Part shown: positions 5,307-29,060 of the stretch, one piece after another
Layout of the letters: every line of letters begins with the position of its first letter
How positions within the stretch are numbered: the first letter of the stretch is position 1
Assembly: GCA_947467395.1 (NCBI GenBank)
Contig: CANIIC010000024.1
Location: 1-32,281, forward strand
DNA length: 32,281 nucleotides
From: Bryobacterales bacterium
Lineage (GTDB): Bacteria; Acidobacteriota; Terriglobia; Bryobacterales; Bryobacteraceae
Reading direction: 5' to 3'
Notes under the pieces: generated by a model
Database searches by the model: none
The model's input: the letters and a program-made list of their open reading frames with translations, nothing else
Told to the model about the DNA's origin: nothing
Program-made: the position numbers and the translations under genes

Positions 5307-5343
5307 GGTCTCGCCGCGCTTCGGCCAGCCCAGAGCGGAGACC
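5307..5343 (-). promoter_or_regulatory. Hairpin in the putative guaA leader
   Basis: Arms GGTCTC (5307-5312) and GAGACC (5338-5343), with further GC pairing inside, form a bulged stem-loop about 45-80 nt upstream of the guaA start. No known purine riboswitch consensus is recognised. It may be a structured leader or an operator. Confidence 0.3.
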
Positions 5344-5428
5344 CCATTGAAAACCGTTAAGAAGGCCTGTGGCCTAGTTTAGAAATCGATTTTCGAGCAT
5401 CTACTCCGGTAGGCTGACATTGTAGATC

Positions 5429-13492: not shown

Positions 13493-13534
13493 AACGGTGT
13501 GCTTCCGTTCTCCGACGTTGGCTACGACCTTTCG

Positions 13535-13562
13535 ATTGTACACGGCTCAGTACTACATGCAA
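13535..13562 (-). promoter_or_regulatory. Putative promoter of the MerR-type gene
   Basis: On the minus strand TTGCAT (13562-13557), a 16-bp spacer and TACAAT (13540-13535) precede the gene. The -10 matches the consensus at five of six positions, the -35 at three. Its place downstream of the alternative GTG start supports ATG 13492. Confidence 0.4.
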
Positions 13563-13578
13563 CAGGGGGCTACATGCT

Positions 13579-13980
13579 ATGGTTCCAGATGTCATGCTCC
13601 TGACCATCCACAGCAACAGAACCCTTCCTGAAATCGAACAGGCACTTCATGAATCGGCTGCTCGTCACAAGTTCGGGATACTCGCCACGCATGATCTGCG
13701 CGAGACGATGAACAAGAAGGGCGTCGAGTTCAATACGGACGTGCGGATCTACGAAGTCTGCAATCCGATGCAGGCGAAAAAGGTCCTGGAAGCCAACGGC
13801 GCTGTGTCGACCGCGCTGCCCTGCCGGATCTCGGTCTATCAGGCGCCGGAAGGCGGCTACAACCTCGCGACCTTGCAGCCGACGGTGCTGATGCAGATGT
13901 TCGGGTCCGCTGCGCTAGGCCCTGTGGCCCAGGAAGTGGAGCAAGTGCTGCAGGAAATGATGGCCGACGCAGCGGGCTAG
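13579..13980 (+). CDS. DUF302 family protein
   Basis: The 133-residue protein follows the DUF302 pattern: an N-terminal [25 protein letters not shown], then [26 protein letters not shown], a central LPCRISVYQ and a C-terminal [13 protein letters not shown], with a helical tail. The family binds unknown small ligands or lipids; no enzyme activity is established to my knowledge. The stop TAG overlaps the stop of the convergent thiS in a shared CTAG. A GGGGG run lies 9 nt before the ATG at 13579; ATG 13594 is an alternative. Divergence from a MerR-type regulator suggests that regulator controls it, which is inference. Confidence 0.85.
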
Positions 13981-14222
13981 CGCGAGCCGCCACCAACGAA
14001 CCAGACGACCTCAAGTTGATCGCCCTCTTCGACCGGCGTCGAAACCCATTCTGTCCGCCGAACAATCTCACGATTTCGTTCCACCGCCACGCGGCCCGGG
14101 TTTACATCCAGGATCTCCAATAGATCCGGTAACTTAAGCCCTTCCGGAACAACTCTGGCTTCGCCGTTTACGGTGATCTGAATGGTGCTGGAGGCGGGAG
14201 AATTCATCGGGCGGTTTGACAC
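13977..14222 (-). CDS. thiS: ThiS-like sulfur carrier protein with a C-terminal extension
   Basis: This 81-residue beta-grasp protein ([23 protein letters not shown], then [17 protein letters not shown] and [15 protein letters not shown]) fits ThiS, which carries sulfur as a C-terminal thiocarboxylate for thiazole synthesis. Canonical ThiS ends in an exposed Gly-Gly. Here the stop follows GGG-Ser-Arg, so two residues must be removed before adenylation, or the protein is a ThiS paralogue. Related carriers in other pathways (the QbsE type) are known to carry such tails trimmed by a JAMM peptidase. No thiG, thiF or peptidase gene is adjacent. It is convergent with the DUF302 gene, and its start overlaps the nuo promoter on the other strand. 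Confidence 0.8.
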
Positions 14223-14245
14223 TTCGTTTCCAGCCTCATTATATT
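14216..14245 (+). promoter_or_regulatory. Sigma70-like promoter of the nuo operon
   Basis: TTGACA (14216-14221), an 18-bp spacer and TATATT (14240-14245) make a near-consensus promoter. The implied leader to nuoA is about 78 nt. The -35 box overlaps the first bases of the divergent thiS gene, so the two genes may influence each other. Confidence 0.65.
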
Positions 14246-14329
14246 CAATAGTTACAGCTGAAATCGCGGGGCGAGCGTGGTGTGTCTATTTCCAACGTCA
14301 GGAAGTGGCCACTCGCAAGCCGGTGAACC

Positions 14330-14719
14330 ATGCCACAAACATACACAGAGCTTTACTTCCCGATCCTGATTCAGGTCATCATTGCCGCAGTTCTAGCGGC
14401 AACTCTCGTAGGCGCCACCGGGTTGCTGGGCAAGCGCTCGAAATCGCCGTTGAAGGACACGCCCTACGAATCGGGCATGGCTCCCGTCGGTTCCGCCCAG
14501 GAACGCTTCAGCGTGAAGTTCTACCTGGTCGGCATGATCTTCATCCTGTTCGACATCGAAGCGGTTTTTCTTTACCCCTGGGTCGTTGTCTACCGCGACC
14601 TCAAGATGTTCGGCTTCTTTGAAATGTTGATTTTCGTCGTGCTGGTGCTGGTCGGCTTCTACTACACCTGGAAAAAGGGCGCGCTCGACTGGTCGGTAAC
14701 GAAAAAGGAGTCCAAGTGA
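14330..14719 (+). CDS. nuoA: NADH-quinone oxidoreductase subunit A
   Basis: NuoA is a small membrane subunit at the junction between the quinone-binding arm and the membrane arm of complex I. The 129-residue protein has three membrane spans (~10-32, ~63-85, ~92-112) and the conserved loop with YESGMAPVGSA, then RFSVKFYLVGMIFILFDIE. GGTGA lies just before the ATG. It is the first gene of the operon. Its stop overlaps the GTG start of nuoC by 4 nt, so nuoB, which normally follows nuoA, is not here and there is no room for a remnant. Confidence 0.97.
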   Translation: MPQTYTELYFPILIQVIIAAVLAATLVGATGLLGKRSKSPLKDTPYESGMAPVGSAQERFSVKFYLVGMIFILFDIEAVFLYPWVVVYRDLKMFGFFEMLIFVVLVLVGFYYTWKKGALDWSVTKKESK

Positions 14720-15153
14720 CCCACCCCGCAATTCTGGAAACGGTGGAGGCGCTCGGCGAAACCACCCTCATCGCGGATCCCGCCAAAATCGTGGATCTGT
14801 GCCGCTATCTCAAAGACACCGAGAAGTACATTCGCCTGAGCGCCGTCACCGCAGTCGACTGGCATCCGGCGACGCCGCGTTTTGAGGTGGTCTATCATCT
14901 GCACTCGCTCGAACCCTTCCGCCGCTTGCGCGTCAAGTGCAAGGTCGGGGGCGAGCAGCCTGCCATCGATTCCGTGTTCAGCGTCTGGCGTGCCGCCAAC
15001 TGGTATGAACGCGAAGTGTTCGACATGTTCGGGATCAACTTCCACAACCACCCGGACCTGCAGCGCATCCTGATGCCGACCGACTGGGAAGGTCACCCGC
15101 TGAGAAAGGACTATCCGGTTCACGGGTACAAGTACAGCTACTCCAATGAATAG
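14716..15153 (+). CDS. nuoC: NADH-quinone oxidoreductase subunit C
   Basis: NuoC (30-kDa subunit) lies in the hydrophilic arm against NuoD and NuoB. The 145-residue protein is shorter than many NuoC proteins but keeps the family signature WYEREVFDMFGINFHNHPDL, with RILMPTDWEGHPLRKDYPV, in its C-terminal half. It uses a GTG start that overlaps the nuoA stop (GTGA), implying translational coupling. It is not fused to nuoD; the nuoD start overlaps its end by 8 nt. Confidence 0.96.
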   Translation: MTHPAILETVEALGETTLIADPAKIVDLCRYLKDTEKYIRLSAVTAVDWHPATPRFEVVYHLHSLEPFRRLRVKCKVGGEQPAIDSVFSVWRAANWYEREVFDMFGINFHNHPDLQRILMPTDWEGHPLRKDYPVHGYKYSYSNE

Positions 15154-16387
15154 GCCCATCCCATACGCCGATCCCGTCTCGACGATCGAGGCGAAGCAGG
15201 AAACTCCGGAGAATCCGTCCGCTGCGCGGCACATGACCCTGAACATGGGTCCGCAACACCCGTCGACTCACGGCGTGCTGCGTATCGTGCTCCAGTTGGA
15301 AGGCGAAGTCATTCGTTCGGCTTATCCGGACATCGGCTTCCTCCATACCGGTATCGAAAAACAGATGGAGACGCGCACCTATGCGCAGGCGGTCACCTTG
15401 ACCGACCGTGTCGACTATCTGGCCAACCTCTCGAACAATCTCTGCTACTGCCTGGCCGTTGAAAAACTGCTGCAGATGGAGATCCCCGACCGCGCCCAAT
15501 GGCTGCGCGTCATGATGACCGAGTTCACGCGCCTGAACAGCCACTTGGTGTGGTTGGGTACGCACGCGCTCGACATCGGCGCCATGTCGATGTTCTTCTA
15601 CTGCTTCCGTGAACGTGAAGACATCCTGCGCATTCTGGAGATGTTCTCCGGTCAGCGCATGATGACCAGCTACATCCGCGTCGGCGGCGTGTCGCTCGAA
15701 GCTCCGCGCGGCTGGCAGCAGGTGGTGGGCAAGTTCATTAAGGGCTTCCCCAGTAAGGTGGATCAGTACGAAGAACTGCTGAACGCCAATCCGATCTGGA
15801 CGCGCCGTACGCAAGGCGTCGGCCACATGGCCGTCGAAGACATGCTGGACCTGGGCATTACGGGTCCGATGTTGCGTGCTGCGGGCGTGGATTGGGATTC
15901 GCGTAAACGTGAGCCTTACTCCAGTTACGAAAAGTTCGACTTCCGGGTTCCCGTCGAAACGTCGAACGACGTGTGGGGCCGGTATCGTGTTCGCATGCAG
16001 GAAATGCGCGAAAGCGCCAAGATCATCACGCAGGTGCTGGAAGGTTTGCCGGAAGGCCCGTTCCAGGCCGACGCTCCGCACGTGGTGCTGCCGCAGCGCG
16101 AAAAGATGAAGACGCAGATGGAAGCGCTCATCTACCACTTCAAGATCGTGACCGAAGGTTATCGTGTCCCGGCCGGCGAAGTGTTCCAGTGCATCGAAGC
16201 TCCGCGCGGCGAAATCGGTTACTACATCGTCAGCGACGGCACACAGAAACCGTATCGCGTGCACATGCGCACCCCTAGCTTCGGGAACCTGCAAGGGCTG
16301 CCGAAGTTGCTCGAAAACACGCTGATCGCCGATTCGATTGCGGCGCTTGGCAGCATGGACTTTGTGTTGGGAGATACAGACCGCTAA
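15146..16387 (+). CDS. nuoD: NADH-quinone oxidoreductase subunit D
   Basis: NuoD (49-kDa subunit) forms most of the quinone pocket together with NuoB. The 413-residue protein carries the signature NMGPQHPSTHGVLRIVLQLE near residue 32, the GFLHTGIEK motif, and the C-terminal region RGEIGYYIVSDG with a final FVLGDTDR. The His in the HPSTHG loop and the downstream Tyr-rich core are the expected quinone-contacting elements. Length is normal. The gene overlaps nuoC by 8 nt and nuoE by 1 nt (TAATG). Confidence 0.98.
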   Translation: MNRPIPYADPVSTIEAKQETPENPSAARHMTLNMGPQHPSTHGVLRIVLQLEGEVIRSAYPDIGFLHTGIEKQMETRTYAQAVTLTDRVDYLANLSNNLCYCLAVEKLLQMEIPDRAQWLRVMMTEFTRLNSHLVWLGTHALDIGAMSMFFYCFREREDILRILEMFSGQRMMTSYIRVGGVSLEAPRGWQQVVGKFIKGFPSKVDQYEELLNANPIWTRRTQGVGHMAVEDMLDLGITGPMLRAAGVDWDSRKREPYSSYEKFDFRVPVETSNDVWGRYRVRMQEMRESAKIITQVLEGLPEGPFQADAPHVVLPQREKMKTQMEALIYHFKIVTEGYRVPAGEVFQCIEAPRGEIGYYIVSDGTQKPYRVHMRTPSFGNLQGLPKLLENTLIADSIAALGSMDFVLGDTDR

Positions 16388-16869
16388 TGACTTTTTCTCC
16401 GCAACTCGAGGAGCGTTTCGCGAAAATGCTCCAATCGTACCCGGAAGGGAAGAAGCGCTCGGCCGTGGTTCCGATGCTGATCTACGCTCAGGATGAAACC
16501 GGAGCAGTGACCGCGGAACTGATCGAAGAAGTGGCCAAGCGTTGTGAAGTAACGCCGCTGCAGGTGGACGAAGTAGTGGGCTACTACTCCATGCTGCACC
16601 GCAAGCCGCAAGGCAAGTTCCACGTGCAGGTGTGTACCAACATCAGCTGCATGCTGGTGGGCGGCACCGAACTCTACGATCAGGCCTGTAAGAAGCTGGG
16701 CCTGGGCCACAAACAGACGGCGGCCGACGGTGTGTTCTCGCTCGAAGAAGTCGAATGCATGGGCGCCTGCAGCTGGGCTCCGATGGTCGCCATCAACTAC
16801 GACTACCACCACAACGTCACCCCTGAACAGTTCGACGCCTTGATCGAAGGCTTAAAGAGGGCTCAGTAA
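16387..16869 (+). CDS. nuoE: NADH-quinone oxidoreductase subunit E
   Basis: NuoE (24-kDa subunit) of the NADH-oxidising module binds the [2Fe-2S] cluster N1a. The 160-residue protein has a helical N-terminal half and a thioredoxin-like C-terminal half. The four ligands are Cys83 and Cys88 in CTNISC and Cys124 and Cys128 in CMGAC, with the family's x4 and x3 spacing. Its ATG overlaps the nuoD stop by one base, and nuoF begins in its own stop codon (TAATG). Confidence 0.98.
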   Translation: MTFSPQLEERFAKMLQSYPEGKKRSAVVPMLIYAQDETGAVTAELIEEVAKRCEVTPLQVDEVVGYYSMLHRKPQGKFHVQVCTNISCMLVGGTELYDQACKKLGLGHKQTAADGVFSLEEVECMGACSWAPMVAINYDYHHNVTPEQFDALIEGLKRAQ

Positions 16870-18176
16870 TGGCGAAGAAACTCTACAACGAACCGAGCCC
16901 GCTAGAGACCAAAGTCATCAGCAAGCGTTGGGGCCTGGAAGGTTCCGAAACGCTGGATGTCTACCTCGCCAACGACGGCTTCAAAGCGTTCCTGAAGGCG
17001 CGCGAGATGACGCCGGAAGCGATCATCGAAGAAGTGAAGACCTCGGCCCTGCGTGGCCGTGGCGGTGCAGGCTTCCCCACTGGCTTGAAGTGGAGCTTCG
17101 TCCCGCGCACTTCGCCCAAGCCGAAGTACATCGTGGTCAACGGCGACGAATCCGAACCGGGCACCTGTAAGGACCGCCTGCTGATCGAATACGATCCGCA
17201 CAACCTGATCGAAGGCATCCTCATCGCCGGTCTGGCGATGGACGCGCACAAGGGCTACATCTACATCCGCGGCGAATATCGCTTCGTCATCGAGAAGATG
17301 AACAAGGCGATTGCCGAAGCCTACGCGCGCGGCTACCTGGGCAAGAACATCGCCGGTACGGGCTTCGATTTCGACCTCTACACGCACTCCGGCGCGGGCG
17401 CCTACGAATGCGGTGAAGAGACTGCGTTGCTCGATTCGCTCGAAGGCAAGCGCGGCGTGCCTCGCATGAAGCCTCCGTTCCCGGCCGTGGCCGGTGCATG
17501 GGCTTCGCCGACGCTGTTGAACAACGTCGAAACGTTCGCTTCCGTTCCCGCGATCATTCGCGATGGTGGCGCGGCGTACGCGGCTCTGGGAACTCCGAAA
17601 AACGGCGGTACGCGCCTGTTGTGCTTGTCCGGTCATGTGAACAAGCCGGGTGTGTACGAAATTCCGCTGGGCTTCCCGATGATGAAGGCCATCAACGAAC
17701 TCGGTGGCGGCATGCGCAACGGCAAGAAGCTGAAGGCCGTGGTGCCGGGCGGTTCGTCCTGCCCGATCCTGCTGGCCAGCGAATGCGACATTGCAATGGA
17801 CTACGACACGGTCGCCAAGGCGGGCAGCATGCTCGGCTCCGGCGGTATGGTGGTCCTCGACGAAGACACCGACATGGTGGCTGTGGCCCTCCGCATCATG
17901 CGCTTCTATGCGCACGAAAGCTGCGGCTGGTGCATCCCGTGCCGAGAAGGTACGACGTGGTTGCGCAAGATTCTGCAGCGCTTCAACGATGGCGGTGGCC
18001 GTCACGAAGATATCGCTCTGATCGGCGACGTGGCGAAGAACATGTTCGGGCGCACCTTCTGCGCGCTGGGCGACGCGGCCGCGATGCCGACGATGTCCAT
18101 CATTCAGAAGTTCTCGCACGAGTTTGAAGAACGGCTGGCGAAGCAGGGATCCGGATTGGTGAGCATCAATGGCTGA
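16869..18176 (+). CDS. nuoF: NADH-quinone oxidoreductase subunit F
   Basis: NuoF (51-kDa subunit) binds NADH, FMN and the [4Fe-4S] cluster N3. In its 435 residues the glycine-rich nucleotide loop GRGGAGFPTGLKW lies at ~63-75, and the NADH/FMN region NGDESEPGTCKDR at ~97-109. The N3 ligands are Cys352, Cys355 and Cys358 in SCGWCIPCREG, with Cys398 in TFCALGD. All expected residues are present. An AGAGGG lies upstream of the ATG within nuoE. Its last 8 nt overlap the start of nuoG. Confidence 0.98.
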   Translation: MAKKLYNEPSPLETKVISKRWGLEGSETLDVYLANDGFKAFLKAREMTPEAIIEEVKTSALRGRGGAGFPTGLKWSFVPRTSPKPKYIVVNGDESEPGTCKDRLLIEYDPHNLIEGILIAGLAMDAHKGYIYIRGEYRFVIEKMNKAIAEAYARGYLGKNIAGTGFDFDLYTHSGAGAYECGEETALLDSLEGKRGVPRMKPPFPAVAGAWASPTLLNNVETFASVPAIIRDGGAAYAALGTPKNGGTRLLCLSGHVNKPGVYEIPLGFPMMKAINELGGGMRNGKKLKAVVPGGSSCPILLASECDIAMDYDTVAKAGSMLGSGGMVVLDEDTDMVAVALRIMRFYAHESCGWCIPCREGTTWLRKILQRFNDGGGRHEDIALIGDVAKNMFGRTFCALGDAAAMPTMSIIQKFSHEFEERLAKQGSGLVSING

Positions 18177-20244
18177 ACTGGTCAAAGTTAAAATCAACGG
18201 GCAGGAGTTCGAGGCCGAAAAGGGCAAGCTGCTGATTGAAGCGGCTCGCGAAAACGGCATCGAAATCCCCGCGTTCTGTTACAAAGAGGGCTACTCGCTC
18301 CAAGCCGCCTGCCGTATGTGCTTGGTGGAAGTGGAAGGTACCCCGAAACTGCAAGTCGGCTGCACCCTGCCGGTAGATGTGAACCGCGACGGCACGCCGA
18401 TGGTGGTTCATACGGAATCGGACACGGTGAAGGCGGCTCGCAAAAGCACGCTGGAACTGCTGCTGACCAACCATCCGCTCGATTGCCCGGTCTGCGACAA
18501 GGGTGGCGAGTGCGAACTGCAGGACATGGTGTTCCGCTACGGCGCCGGCGAAAGCCGCTACACCGAACGCAAGGTCCACACTCCCGAAAAGCAGTGGTCC
18601 CCCGTCGTATTCTTCGACGCTCCGCGTTGCATCCTGTGTTACCGCTGCGTCCGAGCCTGTAACGAAGGCATGGGAGTGGGCGCGTTGGGCATCGGCAACC
18701 GCGGCGTGGTGGCCGAGATCATCCCGAACAAGCACGATCATCTGGAATGCGATGAGTGCGGCGCTTGTATCGACATCTGCCCGGTGGGTGCGCTGACCAG
18801 TGGCATCTATCGCTACCAGACCCGTCCGTGGGAAATGAACCACGTCGGCACGATCTGTACGCACTGCTCCGATGGTTGCAAAACGACCTTGGGCGTTCGC
18901 GACGGCGAGATCATGCGCGGCAACAACCGCGATTCCTCCGGCATCAACGGCGAGTTCCTGTGTGTGAAGGGCCGCTACGGCTTCGACTTCGTGAATCACC
19001 CCGATCGCCTGCAGACGCCGCTGTTGCGCAACGCAGCGGGCGGTTTCGACGAAATCAGCTGGGCGCAGGCTCTGGATCTGGTCTCGAAGAAGTTCACCGA
19101 AGTGAAGTCGAAGAACGGCAAGTTCGGCGTCATCGGTTCGAACCACACCACCAACGAAGAAAACTACTTCCTGCAGAAGTTCGCGCGCCAGGGCCTGGGC
19201 ACGAAGAACATCGACCATCACCGCACCGGTGATCTGGCGACGTTGTTCGATGCGCTTTCGGGCAAGACCGACGCCCTGGCTAGCATGCAGGATGTCTACA
19301 CCGCCAAAGCGGTTCTCGTGGTCGGCAGCGATCTGGCGCAGCAGCATCCGCTGTTGAGCTTCCAGGCGCGCGCCAACTACCGGCATCACGCGGCTCACAT
19401 TTACGCCGTCACCACCGGCGAAGTCCGCGAGGACAAGCAGGCCGTGGCCAGCGTCCGCGTCCAGAAGGGCGGGGAACTGGCTGGAGTCGAATCCCTGCGC
19501 GACAAGCTGAAGGCCGAAGCCAACCTGGTCATCGTCTTCGGCGACACGGTGCAAGGCGACGCGCTCCGCAAGCTGGTCGCCTTCGGCGATTCGCTCGGCA
19601 TCCCGGTCAAGTACGTTGGCTTGGTCGATTACTCGAACTCGCGCGGCGCCTACGACATGGACTTGCTCCCGCGCGACGGCGGTTTAAGCCGTGAGCAGAT
19701 GCTCGCTGCGGCCGACCTCGACGTCCTGTGGGTGGTCGGTGCGAATCCGCTGAAGTCCGCTGCACTGGCATCGAAAAACGCATGCGTCGTGGTGCAGGAC
19801 ATGTTCCTGACTGAAACCGCGAAGGCCGCCACGCTGGTTCTGCCCGCGGCCTCGGCCTACGAAAAGAACGGCACCGTCACCAACGTCACCGGCGAAGTGC
19901 AGAAGCTGAAGCAGGCGATCAAGGTGATGGGCACCAAGACGGACCTGGAAATCATGGGTTCGATCGCGAAGGAAATGGGCCTGAATCTGGGCATCTGGTT
20001 GCCCGAAAAGATGCTGGAAGAAATTCGCAGCACGGTTCACGGCTACAACGTGGCGCTACCGGTTCTGTCCTCCGGCGCGGCGGTGGCGACGCAGCCCCTG
20101 AACGGCAAGGTCGCGGCACTGCCCGGCACCATCGGTTCGGCCGGAGACACGTTGTTCACCTCCGGAACACTGGGCCGCTATTCGAAGACTCTCAACTCGG
20201 TTATGGAGGCCCCCGGCTCTCTGTATGGCGGCAAGGACCACTAA
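18169..20244 (+). CDS. nuoG: NADH-quinone oxidoreductase subunit G
   Basis: NuoG (75-kDa subunit) carries electrons from NuoF toward the quinone arm. Cluster ligands are readable: N1b Cys37, 48, 51 and 65; N5 His102, Cys106, 109 and 115; N4 Cys154, 157, 160 with Cys204, and the paired set Cys164, 194, 197 and 200 as in ferredoxin-like domains. A further C-x2-C-x3-C-x27-C set (Cys230, 233, 237, 265) matches the extra cluster N7, present only in some bacteria. A molybdopterin-oxidoreductase-like domain (~275-620) follows. At 691 residues it is shorter than the ~900 of E. coli but within the family range. It overlaps nuoF by 8 nt; nuoH follows after 6 nt. Confidence 0.97.
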   Translation: MAELVKVKINGQEFEAEKGKLLIEAARENGIEIPAFCYKEGYSLQAACRMCLVEVEGTPKLQVGCTLPVDVNRDGTPMVVHTESDTVKAARKSTLELLLTNHPLDCPVCDKGGECELQDMVFRYGAGESRYTERKVHTPEKQWSPVVFFDAPRCILCYRCVRACNEGMGVGALGIGNRGVVAEIIPNKHDHLECDECGACIDICPVGALTSGIYRYQTRPWEMNHVGTICTHCSDGCKTTLGVRDGEIMRGNNRDSSGINGEFLCVKGRYGFDFVNHPDRLQTPLLRNAAGGFDEISWAQALDLVSKKFTEVKSKNGKFGVIGSNHTTNEENYFLQKFARQGLGTKNIDHHRTGDLATLFDALSGKTDALASMQDVYTAKAVLVVGSDLAQQHPLLSFQARANYRHHAAHIYAVTTGEVREDKQAVASVRVQKGGELAGVESLRDKLKAEANLVIVFGDTVQGDALRKLVAFGDSLGIPVKYVGLVDYSNSRGAYDMDLLPRDGGLSREQMLAAADLDVLWVVGANPLKSAALASKNACVVVQDMFLTETAKAATLVLPAASAYEKNGTVTNVTGEVQKLKQAIKVMGTKTDLEIMGSIAKEMGLNLGIWLPEKMLEEIRSTVHGYNVALPVLSSGAAVATQPLNGKVAALPGTIGSAGDTLFTSGTLGRYSKTLNSVMEAPGSLYGGKDH

Positions 20245-20250
20245 GTCACG

Positions 20251-21432
20251 ATGAACTACTTCATACTGGCTCTCATTAAGACCGGCATCGTCGTGGGCGT
20301 ATTCATGCACGTGCTCGCGTACCTGCAGTGGATCGAGCGCAAAGTCATCGCGCACGTTCAGCTGCGCGTCGGCCCTCGTCGCGTCGGCCCGCACGGCTTG
20401 CTGCAACCGCTGGCGGACGTGATCAAACTCATCACCAAAGAAGACATGATTCCGTCGCACGTGAACAAGGTCTTCTACTACCTGGCTCCGTTCGTCGCTG
20501 TCTTATTCGCCTTGATCTCGATTTCGGTGATCCCCTTCGGGCCGGAAATCGAAGTCTTCGGCATCCGCACGAACATGAGCTTGGCCGACCCTGGCATCGG
20601 CGTGCTGTTCATCCTGGGCATCTCCGGGATGGGCGTGTACGGCGTGGCGCTGGCCGGTTGGGCGTCCAACAACAAGTACTCCCTGATGGGCGGCTTGCGT
20701 AGCTCGGCGCAGATGATCAGCTACGAACTGCCGATGGCGCTCGCGATCGCCGCGCCGCTGCTGATCCTGAATACCCTCAGCTTGCGCGAGATTGGCGAAA
20801 AGCAGGGCGGCTTCGTGCTTGGCGTGATTCCGAACTGGACCATCTTCAGCGGTGGCCAGATCGTCAGCTTCTTCCTCTTTATGGTCGCGGCCTTCGCCGA
20901 AACTAACCGCGTCCCGTTCGATTTGCCGGAAGCGGAAAACGAACTCGTCGCCGGCTTCCACACCGAATATTCCTCGATGAAGTTCGCCTCGTTCTTCATG
21001 GCCGAATACGCCAACATGGTCACGGTCTCGGCCATGGCCACGCTGCTGTTCCTGGGCGGCTGGCATCCGATCTTCCCGGTGGAATACGGTGCGAACTTTA
21101 TCCCCACCCTGATTCACTGGGGTGGTGCCGCGATCCTGTTCTATCACGCCGCGCAGCCTGCCCGGCCCTTCGATAAATACACGTATCCTGTGTTCGGTGT
21201 GATCTTCCTCGGCATCGGCGGCGTCTTCCTGATTCCGTTCCTGCAGCCGATCCTCATGCCTCTGTTCTGGTTCTGCGCCAAGGTCCTCACCATCCTCTTC
21301 GTCTTCATCTGGGTGCGTGCGACTCTGCCGCGTTTCCGCTACGACCAACTGATGAGCTTCGCCTGGACCTTCATGTTCCCGGTCGCTCTGGTCAACCTGT
21401 TCGTAACAGCCCTGGTGGTGGCCCTCTCGTAA
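20251..21432 (+). CDS. nuoH: NADH-quinone oxidoreductase subunit H
   Basis: NuoH (ND1) is the membrane subunit at the entrance of the quinone tunnel. The 393-residue protein has eight or more membrane spans, the conserved loop WIERKVIAHVQLRVGPRRVG at ~29-49, and the acidic loop FAETNRVPFDLPEAENELV that couples quinone reduction to proton transfer. It is somewhat longer than the ~325 of E. coli, with extra hydrophobic sequence at the C-terminus. nuoJ starts 1 nt after its stop, so nuoI, normally between H and J, is missing. Confidence 0.97.
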   Translation: MNYFILALIKTGIVVGVFMHVLAYLQWIERKVIAHVQLRVGPRRVGPHGLLQPLADVIKLITKEDMIPSHVNKVFYYLAPFVAVLFALISISVIPFGPEIEVFGIRTNMSLADPGIGVLFILGISGMGVYGVALAGWASNNKYSLMGGLRSSAQMISYELPMALAIAAPLLILNTLSLREIGEKQGGFVLGVIPNWTIFSGGQIVSFFLFMVAAFAETNRVPFDLPEAENELVAGFHTEYSSMKFASFFMAEYANMVTVSAMATLLFLGGWHPIFPVEYGANFIPTLIHWGGAAILFYHAAQPARPFDKYTYPVFGVIFLGIGGVFLIPFLQPILMPLFWFCAKVLTILFVFIWVRATLPRFRYDQLMSFAWTFMFPVALVNLFVTALVVALS

Positions 21433-21433
21433 T

Positions 21434-21934
21434 ATGGACGCGATCCTGTTTTTGATCTTCGCCGCGATCGCAGTGGTCTGCGGCATCAACATGGTGGTGC
21501 AAAAACACCCCATCTCTAGCGCCCTCTCGCTGGTCGGCGTGATGGCCGCGCTCGCAGCGCTCTACCTGCTGCTGGGAGGCGAATTCATCGCCGCCGCGCA
21601 GTTGGTGGTCTACTCTGGCGCGATCATGGTGCTCTTCATCTTCGTCATCATGCTGCTGAACGCCGGCGCCGAACCGAAGTCGGTCCTCAAGCCGATGGGC
21701 AAGTATCTGGGTGCTCCGCTGCTGGTCGTCTTCTTCGGCATCATGAGCTTCGTTGTCCAGAACATGACGCCGAGTTCTGACAATGTGGTTTTCGGTTCCT
21801 TCAAAGGCGCCGGGCCGCGTGAGATCGGCACCAGCCTCTTCACCGTCTACCTGCTGCCGTTTGAAGTCACCAGCGTTCTGATCCTGATCGCGATTCTGGG
21901 CGCCATTGTGCTGGCCCGCAAGGAGATCGACTAA
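21434..21934 (+). CDS. nuoJ: NADH-quinone oxidoreductase subunit J
   Basis: NuoJ (ND6) is a membrane subunit next to NuoK and NuoH. The 166-residue protein has five predicted membrane spans and the conserved third-span sequence QLVVYSGAIMVLFIFVIML, where the Tyr and Gly are typical. Length matches the family. It is separated from nuoH by a single base and shares one base with the nuoK start (TAATG). Confidence 0.97.
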   Translation: MDAILFLIFAAIAVVCGINMVVQKHPISSALSLVGVMAALAALYLLLGGEFIAAAQLVVYSGAIMVLFIFVIMLLNAGAEPKSVLKPMGKYLGAPLLVVFFGIMSFVVQNMTPSSDNVVFGSFKGAGPREIGTSLFTVYLLPFEVTSVLILIAILGAIVLARKEID

Positions 21935-22260
21935 TGCCGCCGCTTCCGCTGCCGCCCTCGGTGCCTATTTCCTGGTACCTGACGCTGAGCGCGATTCTGT
22001 TCAGCCTTGGCGTTCTGGGCTTCATCCTGCGCCGCAACATCATCACCGTGTTCATGAGCATCGAACTCATGCTGAACGCGGTGAATCTCACGTTCATCAC
22101 GTTTTCCTACATGCTGAAGCGCGTCGATGGACACATCTTCAGCTTCTTTGTGATGGTGGTGGCCGCCGCGGAAGCCGCGGTGGGCCTGGCCATCATCCTG
22201 ACGGTGTTCAAGAACCGCCAGACGCTCGAAATTGACGAGGTAAGTTCGCTTAAGAACTAA
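21934..22260 (+). CDS. nuoK: NADH-quinone oxidoreductase subunit K
   Basis: NuoK (ND4L) is the smallest membrane subunit and part of a proton channel. Its 108 residues have three membrane spans, with the two buried glutamates needed for proton movement at Glu44 (MSIELMLNAVN) and Glu80 (AAAEAAVGLAI). The N-terminus has a short proline-rich lead (MPPLPLPPS) not seen in most relatives. The gene begins in the nuoJ stop codon, and nuoL starts 1 nt after its end. Confidence 0.97.
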   Translation: MPPLPLPPSVPISWYLTLSAILFSLGVLGFILRRNIITVFMSIELMLNAVNLTFITFSYMLKRVDGHIFSFFVMVVAAAEAAVGLAIILTVFKNRQTLEIDEVSSLKN

Positions 22261-22261
22261 C

Positions 22262-24262
22262 ATGCAACTCTGGCTCATACCAATTCTTCCGCTGTTGGGC
22301 TTCCTTATTAACGGGCTCTTCGGCAAGCGGCTTCCCAAAGCTGTGATCAACGCTGTCGCGGTCGGCAGCGTGTTCCTGGCCTTCCTCTGGGTCCTGAAAA
22401 CGTTGAGCGGCCTCGGCGCGTTCTCCGGCGGACTCGAGGAGACCTACTCGGAACACTACTTCACCTGGATCAAATCCGGTTCCCTCGATATCGGCGTGGA
22501 TTTCGCCGTCGATCGGCTCACCTCCATCATGCTGATGATCGTCACCGGCATCGGTACGCTCATCCATATCTACGCAACCGGTTACATGGCCGAAGAGAGC
22601 GGTTACTATCGCTTCTTCGCTTACCTGAACCTGTTCATGTTCTTCATGCTGACCCTGGTACTGGGCGGCAACTTCCTGCTCCTGTTCGTCGGCTGGGAAG
22701 GCGTGGGCTTGTGCAGCTACCTGCTGATCGGCTTCTACTTCTTAGAGAAGTTCGCCACCGACGCCGGCAACAAGGCGTTCATCGTGAACCGCATCGGTGA
22801 CTTCGGCCTCTCTCTTGCCGTGTTCCTGATCGCGATCAACTTCAACACACTCGACTTCGGCAAGGTCTTCGCCCAGGTCAAGACGATGCCGGTCGAAACG
22901 TCGCCCGGTCTGCTGACCGCCATCGCGCTGCTGCTCTTCGTCGGCGCCTGTGGTAAGTCGGCGCAGATTCCCCTGTACGTCTGGCTGCCGGACGCCATGG
23001 CCGGTCCGACCCCCGTGTCGGCCCTCATCCACGCGGCGACCATGGTCACCGCCGGCGTTTACATGGTTACCCGCAGTTCTTCGATCTACCTGCACTCCGC
23101 AGGCGCGCTCGATGTGGTCGCGGTGGTTGGTCTGGCCACAGCGTTCTTCGCCGCGACGGTCGGCCTGACGCAGTTCGATATCAAGAAGGTGTACGCGTAC
23201 TCGACCGTTTCGCAGCTCGGCTACATGTTCCTGGGCCTGGGCGTCGGCGCCTTCTCCGCCGGTATCTACCACGTCATGACGCACGCCTTCTTCAAGGCGC
23301 TGCTCTTCTTGGGCGCCGGTTCCGTGATTCACGGCTGCCATCACGAGCAGGACATGCGCAAGATGGGCGGCCTTCGCAAGTACATGCCGGTCACGATGGC
23401 GGTGTTGGCCTGCGCCACGCTCGCGATCGCCGGTGTGCCGTTCCTCTCCGGTGCGGCCAGTAAAGACATGATTCTCGAAGCGGCCTACGAACACGCCCCC
23501 TGGATGTACTGGGCGGGTGTCGTCACGGCCTGCATGACGGCCTTCTACTGCTCGCGTGCGTTCTTCATGACCTTCTTCGGCGAATATCGCGGCGCGGCCG
23601 CCGACGCCGGCCACGGTCATGGCCACGACAAGAAGAAGGACGATCACGGTCATGCGAAGAAGGATGATCACGGCCACAATGCTGGTCACGGTCACGATGC
23701 GCATGGCCACGACGATCACGGCCACGGTCATCACGGCGGTCTGCCGCACGAATCCCCGTGGGTAATGCTGGCTCCGCTGGTGGTTCTCGCAGCCCTCAGC
23801 TTGGGCGGCCACTACATCTTCAACGTGCCCCACATCCTGGAACCGCTATTCCCCATCCACGAAGGCGAGTCCGAAGCCTGGCTCGAAATCGTGGCGAGCG
23901 CAGCCGGTATCGGCGGCATCGCTCTGGCCTACGTCTTCTACGTGCTGGCCCCGGGGCTGCCCGACGGCATCGTGAGCACCTTCAGTGCTCCGTACCGCTG
24001 GATCTACAACAAGTACTTCGTCGACGAGCTGTATGATGCGGTCTTTGTCGAGCCCACCATCGACGGCTCGCGCAATCTGATGTGGCGCGTCGCTGACGTC
24101 CGCATCATCGACGGCATCGCCAACGGCACCGCAACCGTTGCCCAAGGTTTGGGCGGCATCTTGCGCCGCCTGCAGTCCGGTTACATTCGAAACTACGCCG
24201 CCTGGGTGGTGGCTGGAGCCATCGTCGTGATACTTTGGGTCGGCTTCGGAGGTGCGCGATGA
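22262..24262 (+). CDS. nuoL: NADH-quinone oxidoreductase subunit L with a histidine-rich loop
   Basis: NuoL (ND5) is the distal antiporter-like proton pump of complex I, with a long lateral helix at the C-terminus. In its 666 residues the key Glu146 lies in FVGWEGVGLCSYLL and Lys232 in GACGKSAQIPLYVWLPDAM. Residues 451-491 form a hydrophilic insertion with 15 histidines among Gly, Asp and Lys (HGHGHDKKK through HGHGHH), between two late membrane spans and followed by the usual PHESPWVM. A shorter His-containing loop exists at this place in other bacteria; this one is long. It may bind metal ions or be a spacer. Its stop overlaps the nuoM ATG (ATGA). Confidence 0.97.
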   Translation: MQLWLIPILPLLGFLINGLFGKRLPKAVINAVAVGSVFLAFLWVLKTLSGLGAFSGGLEETYSEHYFTWIKSGSLDIGVDFAVDRLTSIMLMIVTGIGTLIHIYATGYMAEESGYYRFFAYLNLFMFFMLTLVLGGNFLLLFVGWEGVGLCSYLLIGFYFLEKFATDAGNKAFIVNRIGDFGLSLAVFLIAINFNTLDFGKVFAQVKTMPVETSPGLLTAIALLLFVGACGKSAQIPLYVWLPDAMAGPTPVSALIHAATMVTAGVYMVTRSSSIYLHSAGALDVVAVVGLATAFFAATVGLTQFDIKKVYAYSTVSQLGYMFLGLGVGAFSAGIYHVMTHAFFKALLFLGAGSVIHGCHHEQDMRKMGGLRKYMPVTMAVLACATLAIAGVPFLSGAASKDMILEAAYEHAPWMYWAGVVTACMTAFYCSRAFFMTFFGEYRGAAADAGHGHGHDKKKDDHGHAKKDDHGHNAGHGHDAHGHDDHGHGHHGGLPHESPWVMLAPLVVLAALSLGGHYIFNVPHILEPLFPIHEGESEAWLEIVASAAGIGGIALAYVFYVLAPGLPDGIVSTFSAPYRWIYNKYFVDELYDAVFVEPTIDGSRNLMWRVADVRIIDGIANGTATVAQGLGGILRRLQSGYIRNYAAWVVAGAIVVILWVGFGGAR

Positions 24263-25794
24263 GTCTTCTAGACATCGTCCTCTTCCTCCCTCTGATCGGG
24301 TTCCTCGCGATCCTGATCCTGCCGAAGGAATCGAGCCGTATGACGGCCCTGATTCTCTCGCTCGGTATCTTTGTTCTCTCGCTGGGCCTGCTGTCGCCGT
24401 ATATGGGCGACGCGTCTCCCACCGGATGGCAATTCGTGAGCAACGTCTCGTGGATCACCTCCCCGGCGATTCGCTACCACGTTGGCCTCGATGGCCTCAC
24501 TCTGTGGCTGGTCCTGCTCTCCACGATGTTGACGCCGATTGCGGTGTTGATCTCCTGGAACTACATTGACCACCGTGTCAAAGAATACTTCGCCTTCCTG
24601 TTGCTGTTGGAATTCGGCGTCCTCGGCGTGTTCGTCGCGCTCGACATGTTCCTGTTCTACGTGTTCTGGGAACTGTCGCTGGTCCCGATGTACTTCCTGA
24701 TCGGCATCTGGGGTCACGATCGCCGCATCTACGCGGCAGTCAAGTTCTTCCTGTTCACCATGGCTGGCTCCGTACTGATGCTGGCCGCGATGATCTACCT
24801 CTATAACGCGGCGGGCACGTTTGATTACGTCGCCATCCAGAACATGGTGCAGACCGGTGCCCTGAAGTTCGACGGCCAAGTCGGTATGCTCCTGTTCCTG
24901 GCCTTCTTCATCGCCTTCGCGATCAAGGTTCCGCTGTTCCCGCTGCACACCTGGTTGCAGGACGCCCACGTCGAAGCGCCCACCGCCGGTTCCGTCATGC
25001 TGGCCTCGGTCATGCTCAAGATGGGTACCTACGGTCTGGTTCGCTTCTGTCTGACGTTGTTCCCGAACGCCGCGCGCGAAGCCGCTCCGGTGATCGGCGG
25101 TCTCGCGATCGTCGGTATCATCTACGGTGCGCTTTGCGCTTTGGTGCAGCCGAATATGAAGAAGCTGGTTGCCTATTCCTCGGTCAGCCACTTGGGCTTC
25201 GTGGTGTTGGGTGTGTTCAGCTTCACGCAGCAAGGCTTGGATGGCGCGGTTTACCAGATGCTGAATCACGGCGTCTCCACCGGCGCACTCTTCATCCTGG
25301 TCGGCTACCTCTATGAGCGCCGTCACTCGTTGGAAATTTCAGCCTACGGTGGCGTGGCGACTCCCGCTCCGAACCTGGCGATCGTCTTCCTCATCACGAC
25401 CTTCGCTTCTATCGGTCTGCCGGTCCTGAACAACTTCGTCGGTGAATACCTGGTTCTCCAGGGCGCGGCCAAAGCGAACTTTAGCTGGGTTGTCTTCGCC
25501 GCTCTTGGCGTCATCCTGGGTGCTTGCTACATGCTGTGGCTCTATCAGCGCACCTTCTACGGACGAGCTTCCGAATCTCTGGCGCATCACATGCCAGATC
25601 TCACCACCCGCGAGTGGGCGGCCATCGCTCCGCTGCTGATCCTGATGTTCTGGATGGGCTGCTACGCGCAGACCTTCCTGCCCGCCATCAGCGCGCAAAA
25701 CACCGCGATTCTCAATCAAATGAACCAAAATCGAGTGGAGCAAGCCGCCACACCGGCATTGCCTGCGGGAGCGGAGGTGCGCAATGCTCGCTAA
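24259..25794 (+). CDS. nuoM: NADH-quinone oxidoreductase subunit M
   Basis: NuoM (ND4) is the middle antiporter-like proton pump. From ATG 24259, whose ATGA overlaps the nuoL stop, it has 511 residues; an upstream in-frame ATG at 24235 would start inside nuoL and add nothing conserved. Key charged residues are Glu138 in FYVFWELSLVPMYF and Lys223 in FAIKVPLFPLHTWLQDAH. About 14 membrane spans are expected. The last ~20 residues are hydrophilic. It overlaps nuoN by 11 nt. Confidence 0.97.
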   Translation: MSLLDIVLFLPLIGFLAILILPKESSRMTALILSLGIFVLSLGLLSPYMGDASPTGWQFVSNVSWITSPAIRYHVGLDGLTLWLVLLSTMLTPIAVLISWNYIDHRVKEYFAFLLLLEFGVLGVFVALDMFLFYVFWELSLVPMYFLIGIWGHDRRIYAAVKFFLFTMAGSVLMLAAMIYLYNAAGTFDYVAIQNMVQTGALKFDGQVGMLLFLAFFIAFAIKVPLFPLHTWLQDAHVEAPTAGSVMLASVMLKMGTYGLVRFCLTLFPNAAREAAPVIGGLAIVGIIYGALCALVQPNMKKLVAYSSVSHLGFVVLGVFSFTQQGLDGAVYQMLNHGVSTGALFILVGYLYERRHSLEISAYGGVATPAPNLAIVFLITTFASIGLPVLNNFVGEYLVLQGAAKANFSWVVFAALGVILGACYMLWLYQRTFYGRASESLAHHMPDLTTREWAAIAPLLILMFWMGCYAQTFLPAISAQNTAILNQMNQNRVEQAATPALPAGAEVRNAR

Positions 25795-27232
25795 CTTCAT
25801 CCCCAGCGCCGCCGAATACGCGCGCTTCATGCCCGAGCTGATCCTGATTGTGGTCGGCACGCTGATCATGTTCCTCGAAGCGTTCCTCGAAGGGGAACGC
25901 AAGCCGATCCTCAGCATCCTCGCCGGTCTCGGCTTGGTTGCTGGCATCTTCGCCGCCCTGACCGCGCCGCAAGGCATGGCGTTCCAGGGCATGCTGGCTG
26001 TCGACGGCTTCGCGACCTTCTTCAGAGTCCTCGTGATGGCCGCCGGCCTGCTCGTTCTGCTCAGCTCCTCGGAGTATCTGCAGCGCGAAGGTCACGACAC
26101 CGGCGAGTTCTACGCTCTCGTTCTGTTCAGCATCGTGGGCCAGTGCATCATGGCCAGCGCGAATGAACTGATCATGATCTTCATCGGCCTCGAGATCTCC
26201 TCGATCGCGTCCTACATCCTGGCCGGCTACCTCCGCGACGATGCGCGCAACAACGAATCGGCGCTGAAGTACTTCTTGCTGGGTTCCTTCGCCACCGCCT
26301 TCCTGCTGTACGGTGTGGCCTGGATCTACGGCGCGACCGGTTCGACCAACCTGGCGACGATTCACAACGCGCTGCTCTCCGGTGCGAATTCCTCCACCCC
26401 GTTGATCAGCGTGGCGGCTGGTCTAATCTTCGTCGGTCTGGCCTTCAAGATCTCGGCTGCTCCCTTCCAAGGTTGGGCTCCCGACGTCTATCAGGGTGCT
26501 CCTGCTCCGGTCTCCGGCTTCCTGACCGTTGGCCCCAAGGCTGCGGCGTTCGCGGTTCTGATTCGCATCTTCGTGGATGCCTTCAGCTCGATCTCAGATC
26601 GCTGGCTTCCCGTCGTTTGGGGCTGCGCTCTGGCGACGATGCTGGTCGGCAACCTCGCCGCTCTGCTGCAATCGAACATCAAGCGCATGCTGGCCTACAG
26701 CTCGATCGCACACGCCGGCTACGTGCTGGTTGCGGTTTGCGCGAACTCCGGTACGGGTTCGGCCGCCGCGATGTTCTACCTGGCCGGTTACGCGTTCACC
26801 AACATCGGCGCCTTCGCCGTGGTTTCGCACTTCGCCCGCAAGGGTGAGAAGTATGTCGCCATCGAAGACTTCGCCGGTCTGTCTCAGCGTCAGCCGGGCA
26901 TGGCCGCGATGCTCACCATCTTCTTACTCAGTCTCATTGGTGTGCCTCTGACCGCTGGTTTCTTCGGCAAGTTCTACATCTTCAAGGCCGCCCTCGATTC
27001 GCATCTGGTGTGGCTGACGGTGTTGGGCCTGTTGAACAGCGCCATCGCCGCTTACTACTACCTGCGTATCCTGGTCGTGATGTACATGAAGGAACCGGGC
27101 GAATCGACGGAAACTCTGACTGCTCCTGGTCCGATGTTGACGCTCGCCATCTACGGCTCGGCCGTGATGACCCTGGTGCTCGGCATCCTGCCGGGTTGGG
27201 TGCTCGACTACGCCGTGAAGGCCGCGCAGTAG
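25784..27232 (+). CDS. nuoN: NADH-quinone oxidoreductase subunit N
   Basis: NuoN (ND2) is the antiporter-like proton pump nearest the quinone arm. The 482-residue protein has Glu137 in MIFIGLEISSIASYILAGY and a Lys in LAFKISAAPFQGWAPDVYQG, the expected proton-path residues. About 14 membrane spans are expected. It is the last gene of the operon: a hairpin terminator begins 24 nt after its stop. Confidence 0.97.
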   Translation: MLANFIPSAAEYARFMPELILIVVGTLIMFLEAFLEGERKPILSILAGLGLVAGIFAALTAPQGMAFQGMLAVDGFATFFRVLVMAAGLLVLLSSSEYLQREGHDTGEFYALVLFSIVGQCIMASANELIMIFIGLEISSIASYILAGYLRDDARNNESALKYFLLGSFATAFLLYGVAWIYGATGSTNLATIHNALLSGANSSTPLISVAAGLIFVGLAFKISAAPFQGWAPDVYQGAPAPVSGFLTVGPKAAAFAVLIRIFVDAFSSISDRWLPVVWGCALATMLVGNLAALLQSNIKRMLAYSSIAHAGYVLVAVCANSGTGSAAAMFYLAGYAFTNIGAFAVVSHFARKGEKYVAIEDFAGLSQRQPGMAAMLTIFLLSLIGVPLTAGFFGKFYIFKAALDSHLVWLTVLGLLNSAIAAYYYLRILVVMYMKEPGESTETLTAPGPMLTLAIYGSAVMTLVLGILPGWVLDYAVKAAQ

Positions 27233-27256
27233 TTCCAACGTAAATCAAAAAAGCGA

Positions 27257-27289
27257 AAGCCCGCCGTGACCGCAAGGTCCGGCGGGCTT
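27257..27289. terminator. Bidirectional terminator between nuoN and the cupin gene
   Basis: A 10-bp stem AAGCCCGCCG/CGGCGGGCTT continues, after a bulged T, with GACC/GGTC closed by a GCAA tetraloop. On the minus strand it is followed by TTCGCTTTTTTG, a good T-run for the cupin operon. On the plus strand only CGTGTTTTC follows, weaker but adequate for nuo. Confidence 0.85.
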
Positions 27290-27305
27290 CGTGTTTTCGG
27301 ACGAC

Positions 27306-27758
27306 TTACTTCTTATCGAGCTTCAGCAACAAGTAGCTGAGCTGCTTTCCTTCCGGCACGACCACCCAATGCGGCAATCCTGCCGGCACATGCACGATGT
27401 CGCCCGGGCCAATCTTCTTATCTGTCGATCCCGTCAGTCCTTTGCCGCGGACCTCTCCCGCGGTCGTCGGATGACCTTCGATCATCGCGCCACCAATCTT
27501 CAGCGTGGCCTCGCCTTCCGTCACGATCATGATGTCCGCAAGACGCTCGTGAATCTCTGACTCGCCCGTCTTATCGCGGCGCACAACAATGGCCGTGTAG
27601 CCGCTGAGGTTGCCGATCGGGCCACCCGCCATCCCGGTCGCATCCACCTTGGCAGCTTTCGCGCGATCGGTGATCTCCGACGCTTTCCACATCGAGAATC
27701 CAGTAGGGTCCTGCGCGAATAGCGCCAGGGCAGGGACGAAGACAAGCCAACGTTTCAT
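27306..27758 (-). CDS. Secreted small cupin protein
   Basis: The 150-residue protein has a signal peptide (MKRWLVFVPALALFAQ) and one cupin barrel at ~55-145. The two cupin motifs are SEIHERLADIMIVTEGEATLKIGG and GDIVHVPAGLPHWVVV; the histidines in IHE and LPHW are likely metal ligands. Substrate and activity are unknown; secreted single-domain cupins of this kind are common in Acidobacteriota. It is last in a minus-strand operon, 12 nt after the MFS transporter gene, and is followed by a strong terminator. Confidence 0.85.
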   Translation of the reverse strand: MKRWLVFVPALALFAQDPTGFSMWKASEITDRAKAAKVDATGMAGGPIGNLSGYTAIVVRRDKTGESEIHERLADIMIVTEGEATLKIGGAMIEGHPTTAGEVRGKGLTGSTDKKIGPGDIVHVPAGLPHWVVVPEGKQLSYLLLKLDKK

Positions 27759-27770
27759 GGGGCTATCGTA

Positions 27771-29060
27771 TCATTGCTGCTGCTTCAGCGGCTTGATCAA
27801 CAGCGTCAGCAGGAAACCCACCGCCAGCAACCCGGCGAGCATCTGCAACGGACTGTCGTAGATGTGGACCAAGCTCGCCCCCGGCGCCAAGCCCGCCTTC
27901 GCGCGTTTCGATAATTCAGTGATGATCACTGGACCCACCACCGCCGCCGCGCTCCAAGCCGTCAACGTTGCACCATGAATCGCGCCCACGTTCTCCGGCC
28001 CGAAGATATCGGCCAGGAATGCAGGGATCGTCGCGAAACCACCACCGTACATGCTCACGACCAGAAATAAGCTCGCTTCAAACGGAGTCAACGCGCCACT
28101 CGCCGCCAAGCCCGGAATCAAGAGGAACAACGCCACCTGCGTCACGAAAAACACCCGATACGTGTTGCGCCGGCCGATGTAATCCGATCCCGACGCCCAC
28201 AGAAACCGCCCGCCCGCATTGAAGATGCTGAGTAGCGAGACCACTGTGCCTGCTTGCAGCGCCGTCATCCCGAACAAATCCTGCATCATCGGCGATGCTT
28301 GCGCCAGGATGCCGATCCCCGCCGTCACGTTGATGAACAACATGCCCCACAGTAGGTAAAACTGCCGCGTTCGAATCGCCTGATTGCGAGAGACGCTTTG
28401 CGTCGCGATCATCGCATTCTGATGCTCCGGTGGATTCCATCCCTCCGGCTTCCAGCCCGCGGGCGGCCTCGACAACAACCGCGCGCCGATCAACATCACC
28501 ACCAGATACACGGCACCCATGATCAACACAGTATTCGCGACGCCCATGCTCTCAATGAACATCGCATTCAGCCGACCCGCGATAAACGCGCCGCCTCCGA
28601 AGCCCATGATCGCCATGCCCGTGGCCATCCCACGTCGATCCGGGAACCACTTCACCAGCGTGCTCACGGGAGCAATGTACCCCAGTCCGCACCCAATCCC
28701 GCCGATCACGCCCATCCCCAGGAACACCAGCACCGCCTGCTTCAGCGCCAGCCCCAGTCCACCAATCAACAACCCGCTGCCGAAGAATAACGCTGCAGCG
28801 GTGGCGGCGATTCGTGGGCCTCTGCGCTCTACCCACGGGCCGCCGAACGCCGCACTCAGCCCCAGCAAAACGAGGGCCGTCGAGTACGTTGCATAAGTTG
28901 GATTAAACCAGCCAACGTCGGCGAACAATTGCTGCATGGGGCGGTTGAAAGTGCTCCATGCATAGACACTGCCGATGCAAAGGTGGACCGCAACCGCTCC
29001 CAAGGGAATCAACCAGCGATTCACAACTGGGGTAGTCGGAGAAGAAGCGGTGGCAGCCAT
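27771..29060 (-). CDS. MFS transporter, oxalate/formate antiporter (OFA) family
   Basis: This 429-residue membrane protein with 12 expected spans has the OFA-type start NRWLIPLGAVAVHLCIGSVYAWSTF, the loop RRGPRIAATAAA, and DRRGMATGMAIMGFGGGAFI in the fifth-span region. OFA members exchange oxalate, formate or other monocarboxylates across the inner membrane; the substrate here cannot be assigned. It lies 10 nt after the M28 peptidase gene and 12 nt before the cupin gene, in one operon. No oxalate or formyl-CoA genes are nearby to support oxalate exchange. Confidence 0.88.
   Translation of the reverse strand: MAATASSPTTPVVNRWLIPLGAVAVHLCIGSVYAWSTFNRPMQQLFADVGWFNPTYATYSTALVLLGLSAAFGGPWVERRGPRIAATAAALFFGSGLLIGGLGLALKQAVLVFLGMGVIGGIGCGLGYIAPVSTLVKWFPDRRGMATGMAIMGFGGGAFIAGRLNAMFIESMGVANTVLIMGAVYLVVMLIGARLLSRPPAGWKPEGWNPPEHQNAMIATQSVSRNQAIRTRQFYLLWGMLFINVTAGIGILAQASPMMQDLFGMTALQAGTVVSLLSIFNAGGRFLWASGSDYIGRRNTYRVFFVTQVALFLLIPGLAASGALTPFEASLFLVVSMYGGGFATIPAFLADIFGPENVGAIHGATLTAWSAAAVVGPVIITELSKRAKAGLAPGASLVHIYDSPLQMLAGLLAVGFLLTLLIKPLKQQQ

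Follow-up and report, generated by a model that had tools for sequence, protein, structure and literature searches.

The Question Raised by the Locus

Does a bacterium whose nuo operon lacks two of the expected genes still encode a complete complex I, and where would these genes be found? The question is raised by a DNA stretch of 32,281 nucleotides (nt) from a Bryobacterales bacterium (assembly GCA_947467395.1, contig CANIIC010000024.1, positions 1 to 32,281), hereafter called the window, which on its plus strand (14330-27232) carries the tightly packed run nuoA-C-D-E-F-G-H-J-K-L-M-N, with nuoB and nuoI not included. All 14 core complex I subunit genes are present in the genome, 12 of them in the window, nuoB on contig C104, and nuoI on contig C47. 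The two separate genes are single-copy, intact, and mutually non-adjacent; they have been relocated and not lost. An ordinary 14-subunit complex I made from three transcription units (the 12-gene run, nuoB, and nuoI), resulting from an old relocation, would very probably account for this arrangement.

In the canonical single nuoA-N operon, nuoB is located between nuoA and nuoC, and nuoI between nuoH and nuoJ. This placement is found neither at the junctions of the window nor at those visible in the named acidobacterial loci (see below), and the order of the remaining 12 genes is unchanged. The end of nuoA at 14719 and the GTG start of nuoC at 14716 overlap by 4 nt, as seen upon inspection of the junction sequence, while a single nt separates the end of nuoH (21432) from the start of nuoJ (21434); there is no space for nuoB or nuoI at either junction. 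An operon without the two genes and without a scar is what the initial annotation of the window had described, and both parts of the description are borne out, the former by matches to Pfam and NCBIfam profiles, the latter by the verified 4-nt overlap and 1-nt gap.

nuoB and nuoI in the Genome of the Window

Searches of the draft genome (95.67% complete) returned one NuoB match, on C104, which was recovered again with TIGR01957, and one full-length NuoI match above the family cut-off of TIGR01971, on C47; three further matches to the latter model are weak (21-31 bits). NuoC and NuoH are found once each, both inside the window, and the genes of the NADH module, nuoE, nuoF, and nuoG, are all present. 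The best solved match of NuoB is the complex I chain 2fug_6 (E value 9e-66), with the cysteines aligned, and that of NuoI is the complex I chain 2fug_9 (E value 4e-45), with both CxxCxxCxxxCP motifs aligned. We take these cysteines to be the ligands of cluster N2 in NuoB and of clusters N6a/N6b in NuoI.

On C104, nuoB is flanked by a divergent 4-alpha-glucanotransferase gene on one side and by a DNA-alkylation-repair gene on the other. On C47, nuoI adjoins a divergent PMT_2-domain gene and is closely followed downstream by a transporter-like open reading frame (ORF), here labeled EamA-like on the basis of a PF07168 match below the cut-off, and then by a transglycosylase gene. That the genes had moved to another locus, as the initial annotation had suggested, is confirmed by this genome search, in which each is single-copy and not adjacent to the other. 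That they had moved together is wrong for this genome, where they lie on different contigs among unrelated neighbors.

Distribution of the Layout in Relatives and in the Phylum

Named genomes were scanned with the NuoH of the window as query, and the best 80 loci were kept, which favors cores like that of the window; 32 of the loci have acidobacterial titles and 48 have others. Among the matches listed, Terriglobia and Candidatus Sulfopaludibacter records come closest to the window by NuoH. The junction between nuoA and nuoC is visible in 24 of the 32 acidobacterial loci listed, with nuoB absent from all 24, and that between nuoH and nuoJ in 30, with nuoI absent from all 30. For the 48 non-acidobacterial loci listed, the order A-B-C was counted 30 times versus a single A-C, and H-I-J 38 times versus six H-J. 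The same core order as in the window is seen in Terriglobus roseus DSM 18391, Granulicella mallensis, G. aggregans, Edaphobacter lichenicola, and Occallatibacter savannae.

Two genome sets were surveyed by profile searches, namely a set of 61 genomes comprising the window's own genome and relatives mostly from its genus, family, and order, and a phylum sample of 88 genomes besides its own. For several of these searches, the counts are those among the matches listed. The tallies include a core only if its nuoC and nuoH share a contig and are 4.5-8.5 kb apart; a distant nuoB or nuoI counted in them may belong to another complex of the same genome. PF01058 matches of approximately 410-507 nt, mostly hydrogenase-like, were excluded by hand from the table of relatives, as were NuoI matches below approximately 45 bits and, where a NuoH match was split, its second piece. 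Group-4-hydrogenase-like or divergent complexes, including NuoH matches of 240-297 bits, were removed by hand from the phylum table, and some lower-scoring partial NuoH matches were retained there.

Among the 44 cores of the relatives, 31 lack nuoB and nuoI, seven have both, and six are of another type with nuoI near nuoC. A distant nuoB accompanies all 31 cores without the two genes (uncertain in G015, where a match of 444 nt on contig C184 was kept as the best NuoB candidate of that genome), and a distant nuoI accompanies 30 of them, the remaining one being that of G002, a genome 65% complete. The phylum sample yielded 44 cores of window-like spacing, of which 24 are complete, 14 lack both genes, five lack nuoI only, and one is of another kind; a distant nuoB was found for 13 of the 14 cores without both genes (not for G134) and a distant nuoI for all 14. 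The fetched cores read A-C-D-E-F-G-H-J, complete apart from nuoB and nuoI, in 19 of 20 cases, and the remaining one, that of G032, is seen only from A to H. In family f8, which belongs to the same class, all eight sampled genomes have the layout of the window. Two nearly closed relatives show it within single contigs: one 4.9-Mb contig of G145 (3 contigs) carries the core at approximately 3.78 Mb, nuoI at approximately 4.68 Mb, and nuoB at approximately 4.87 Mb, and one 6.7-Mb contig of G030 (2 contigs) carries the core at approximately 5.17 Mb, nuoI at approximately 3.95 Mb, and the matching nuoB at approximately 4.57 Mb, the distance between nuoB and nuoI being approximately 0.2 Mb and 0.6 Mb, respectively.

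The initial annotation had named a common ancestral order without the two genes in all relatives as the finding that would render the locus ordinary. Such an order does prevail at the junctions of the named acidobacterial loci, but it does not extend to all relatives; complete nuo operons are common across the phylum as a whole, and a different complex I is used by family f3, which belongs to the same order. Within its class, the layout is for the most part ordinary, and the recurring pattern behind it is of moderate interest.

This pattern includes further arrangements. In family f26, nuoB is next to nuoC and nuoI is elsewhere in all four genomes. In G078, G143, and G125, members of other families whose fetched stretches stop at K or L, the core A-C-D-E-F-G-H-J-K lacks nuoB and nuoI, and the two form a pair away from the operon, which would fit a joint move in such families. 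The cores of G099, G110, G131, and G140 lack nuoE, nuoF, and nuoG between nuoD and nuoH and have a nuoB-nuoI pair elsewhere, while G063 and G103 have similar cores with both genes elsewhere and apart.

Several other gene orders were noted in passing. In G125, a consecutive nuoB-nuoI-nuoB (C23:82142-83616, locus L205) contains two NuoB of different clades, as if for two cores. Family f37 has a tandem nuoI pair with no nearby nuoH (G107, C7:26020-26935; G118, C34:133441-134391). Seven genomes of family f28 (G086, G098, G109, G120, G130, G139, and G148) have a complex I split into a nuoB-C and a nuoH-I place, which is a different kind of operon break, besides a second complex I with B, C, H, and I together. 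Beyond the acidobacterial records, a contig of a Methylomirabilota metagenome-assembled genome (L127), either non-acidobacterial or misbinned, carries the run L-M-N-A-C-D-E-F-H-J without nuoB, nuoG, and nuoI, and nuo runs of a Gemmatimonadetes (L085) and a Fimbriimonadales (L122) record have nuoH followed by nuoJ with nuoI not between them.

Trees and the Probable Order of Departure

The stand-alone NuoB proteins of the genomes with this core (19, own genome included) form one clade with support of 98/91 (100/97 in an earlier tree with 14 such rows), as do the 18 matching stand-alone NuoI proteins (99/90). The core tree, computed by a quick method without bootstrap from concatenated C, D, H, and J sequences aligned anew over their full length, groups the same genomes. 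The sister of the window-type NuoI clade is the stand-alone NuoI of G138, a member of family f26 (100/98). The quick tree places the G138 core with the class and with Chloroflexi, as the NuoB tree does for the NuoB of this genome (98/95). The tree labels for genes in operons and in pairs were set by distance alone, with G137, in which nuoB lies beside a D-like ORF, being ambiguous, and in the NuoI tree the second Ardenticatenia NuoI forms a very long branch.

Family f26 represents a half-way state, with nuoI out of the operon and nuoB still in. Since its NuoI is the sister of the window-type clade and its nuoB stands beside nuoC, the simplest reading is that nuoI departed first and nuoB later. 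In an ancestor of the acidobacterial class, nuoI would have left the operon, to be followed by nuoB; each gene would have been inserted between unrelated genes, and the operon junctions would have closed tightly. Each relocated gene would have a promoter of its own driving its expression, and the three units would supply the subunits that co-assemble into one proton-pumping NADH:quinone oxidoreductase.

G078, G143, and G125, with their nuoB-nuoI pairs, constitute a lineage separate from that of the window in the trees. From the sequences, it would appear that nuoB and nuoI moved out of nuo operons on more than one occasion in the phylum, in some cases as a nuoB-nuoI pair, and whole-operon transfer between lineages could add to such patterns. 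A single origin of the relocated genes was evaluated by the approximately unbiased (AU) test and rejected for NuoB (p-AU 7e-7; 36 versus 27 rows) and for NuoI (p-AU 5e-80; 32 versus 29 rows), with the groups named after the trees had been seen, long branches present, and an extra NuoB of G146 next to an operon counted as relocated.

Neighbors and Putative Promoters of the Stand-Alone Genes

A constant partner gene was looked for at 14 nuoB loci and 19 nuoI loci, those of the relatives covering approximately 7 kb each (own genome's excepted) with farther neighbors out of view, and none was found. Near nuoB, seven of the 14 loci, that of the window's genome among them, have a malQ-like gene, and two have a DNA-alkylation-repair gene; near nuoI, the EamA-like and SLT pair occurs in five of the 19 loci and a PMT_2 gene in three. 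Only the malQ-like gene among these is seen outside the genus of the window. At the nuoB locus of G057 (L248), a nuoA-like ORF (5244-5723) is located on the opposite strand at a distance of approximately 1.4 kb from the stand-alone nuoB; the core of this genome has its own nuoA.

Upstream of stand-alone nuoB, 12 of 14 genomes have a TATAAT-like hexamer (at least 5 of 6 matches) at a distance of 6-7 nt from the start codon, versus a mean of 0.18 and a maximum of 3 in shuffled sequences, the search range being 5-8 nt before the start. In the window's own genome, TATAAT stands 6 nt before the GTG start on C104 (L064:8529-8541). A spacing of 6-7 nt between TATAAT and the start is that of leaderless mRNAs, and the position of the box suggests that stand-alone nuoB is transcribed in this form. 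Box counts, which cover these 14 nuoB loci and 12 nuoI loci with the stand-alone nuoB of the second clade (see below) left out, derive from related genomes with start codons picked by eye, and shuffles, not the base rate of the phylum, serve as reference. None of the 12 nuo genes of the window has a box of the nuoB or nuoI type.

Several observations weigh against a relocation followed by expression from own promoters. At 12 of 12 nuoI loci, the start is preceded at a distance of 8-13 nt by a TA[AC]N[AC]T hexamer (shuffle mean 0.3), but the pattern was derived from the very loci on which it was counted; it recurs in strict form in one of seven held-out loci, and three f8 loci show, by eye, a TATACT near the start. 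The nuoB box is firmer than the nuoI box. A fixed-rule scan found no promoter before stand-alone nuoB, and before stand-alone nuoI none with a fitting position and strand. In family f3, the 12-gene core was not found in the 18 genomes sampled; 15 of these have nuo matches, all with nuoI beside nuoH and a stand-alone nuoB, belonging to another complex I. NuoB had no match in G012 (99% complete) and G031 (91% complete) despite the presence of nuoC, nuoH, and nuoI, which is probably due to assembly gaps. Finally, the genome of the window is a draft in 278 contigs.

Other Explanations of the Split

The fragmented assembly, together with 3.14% contamination, could be taken to mean that nuoB and nuoI are of foreign origin or were excised through assembly errors. 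Such an artefact is, however, extremely improbable: the core and NuoI of the window are placed beside the congeners G001 and G014; its NuoB lies inside the clade of its genus, the exact branch not being settled, and shares 94% identity with the NuoB of G001 and of G014 versus 84-88% with that of four other congeners; the G + C contents of the three pieces are 59.0, 61.2, and 61.0%; and the same layout is seen within single contigs of G145 and G030, with the same core in the complete T. roseus record.

Sharing of the two genes with a second complex I had also been proposed by the initial annotation, and a hydrogenase-like complex may be added as a possible partner. Several relatives do carry two or more complexes, among them a second, different complex I of the class, with its 10 stand-alone nuoB rows in a clade of their own (100/99). 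In the earlier NuoB tree, G024, G032, G057, G060, and G136 were represented by one NuoB each, all in this second clade; their other NuoB proteins, fetched later, fell in the clade of the window. Including G010, G029, G030, and G035, nine genomes have one stand-alone NuoB in each of the two supported clades, and nuoB is therefore not apparently shared between complexes. With only one nuoC and one nuoH in the window's own genome, sharing is very unlikely, and the proposal is not sustained. Equally little probability is assigned to a 12-gene complex running without NuoB and NuoI, with the stand-alone genes serving another role; the separate gene location would fit it, but the profiles and cysteines of the two proteins are those of an ordinary NuoB and an ordinary NuoI, and the searches of this genome yielded no further nuoC or nuoH. 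One complex I from three transcription units remains the favored explanation.

Features of the 12-Gene Run

All genes of the run are on the plus strand. Pfam domains were checked for nine ORFs, namely nuoA (14330-14719; PF00507), nuoC (14716-15153; PF00329), nuoD (15146-16387; PF00346), nuoE (16387-16869; PF01257), nuoF (16869-18176; PF01512/PF10589), nuoG (18169-20244; PF10588/PF00384), nuoH (20251-21432; PF00146), nuoJ (21434-21934; PF00499), and nuoK (21934-22260; PF00420). Curated cut-offs of NCBIfam models are exceeded by nuoF (TIGR01959), nuoG (TIGR01973), nuoL (22262-24262; NF005141 and TIGR01974), nuoM (24235-25794; TIGR01972), and nuoN (25784-27232; TIGR01770). The listed start of nuoM is a TTG, and its real start is probably more internal.

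A sigma-70-like promoter match, TTGACA-18-TATATT (14216-14245, plus strand; 11 of 12 consensus positions), ends 84 nt upstream of nuoA. It is the sole such site in 13500-27800, where shuffles give a mean of 3.6, so that promoter-like sites are not enriched and the candidate is a consensus match only. A weak possible terminator hairpin (27275-27289, plus strand), likewise a consensus match only, follows nuoN; the eight terminator-like sites of the region compare with a shuffle mean of 10.9 and are not enriched either. A DUF302 domain gene (13579-13980) is located a short distance upstream of nuoA.

Comparison with Known Systems and Implications

Like the canonical bacterial nuoA-N operon, the genome of the window encodes all 14 core subunits with the other 12 genes in the same order, but nuoB and nuoI are single genes outside the operon. 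In the relevant part of the report on Nitrospina gracilis, NUO-2 is described as a second complex I with nuoB2 outside the operon (PMC3578206). The location of nuoB away from the operon is shared with the window's genome, whereas the rest of NUO-2 is also split (nuoACHIJKLMN, nuoEGD, and nuoF2), nuoI stays with nuoH, and the complex is a second copy next to a canonical one (PMC3578206). For the NDH-I of Acidobacterium capsulatum, likewise an acidobacterium, the passages on operon expression name "nuoAC" and "nuoE-N", yet the operon is described there as a whole nuoA-N operon, with the place of nuoB and nuoI uncommented in these passages (PMC11636273). The families of G078, G143, and G125 share a core without nuoB and nuoI; they differ in that the two genes are adjacent and belong to a separate lineage. 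According to one paper, most Acidobacteriota species have a complete complex I, with matches clustered within 250 bp (PMC12361115). No description of a nuoB or nuoI relocation in Acidobacteriota was found in the portions of the literature covered, most subscription journals being outside their scope.

It is conceivable, if rather doubtful, that nuoB and nuoI, whose products are the iron-sulfur subunits adjoining the quinone site, repeatedly leave the operon in this phylum while the genes around them remain, and gain own promoters (nuoB apparently with a leaderless mRNA), by which the supply of the N2 and N6 subunits may be set separately, allowing control of assembly through a limiting subunit; this idea is rated lower because the nuoI box mostly failed in the held-out loci. 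The layout itself explains why annotation that relies on operons can judge the complex I of this group to be incomplete, and it shows that three separate places can together encode all 14 subunits of an apparently intact complex I across much of a bacterial class. The recurrent departure of these two genes from the operon, together with the half-way state, provides a test case for why some subunits escape operon linkage and for whether separate control of nuoB and nuoI may limit complex I assembly.

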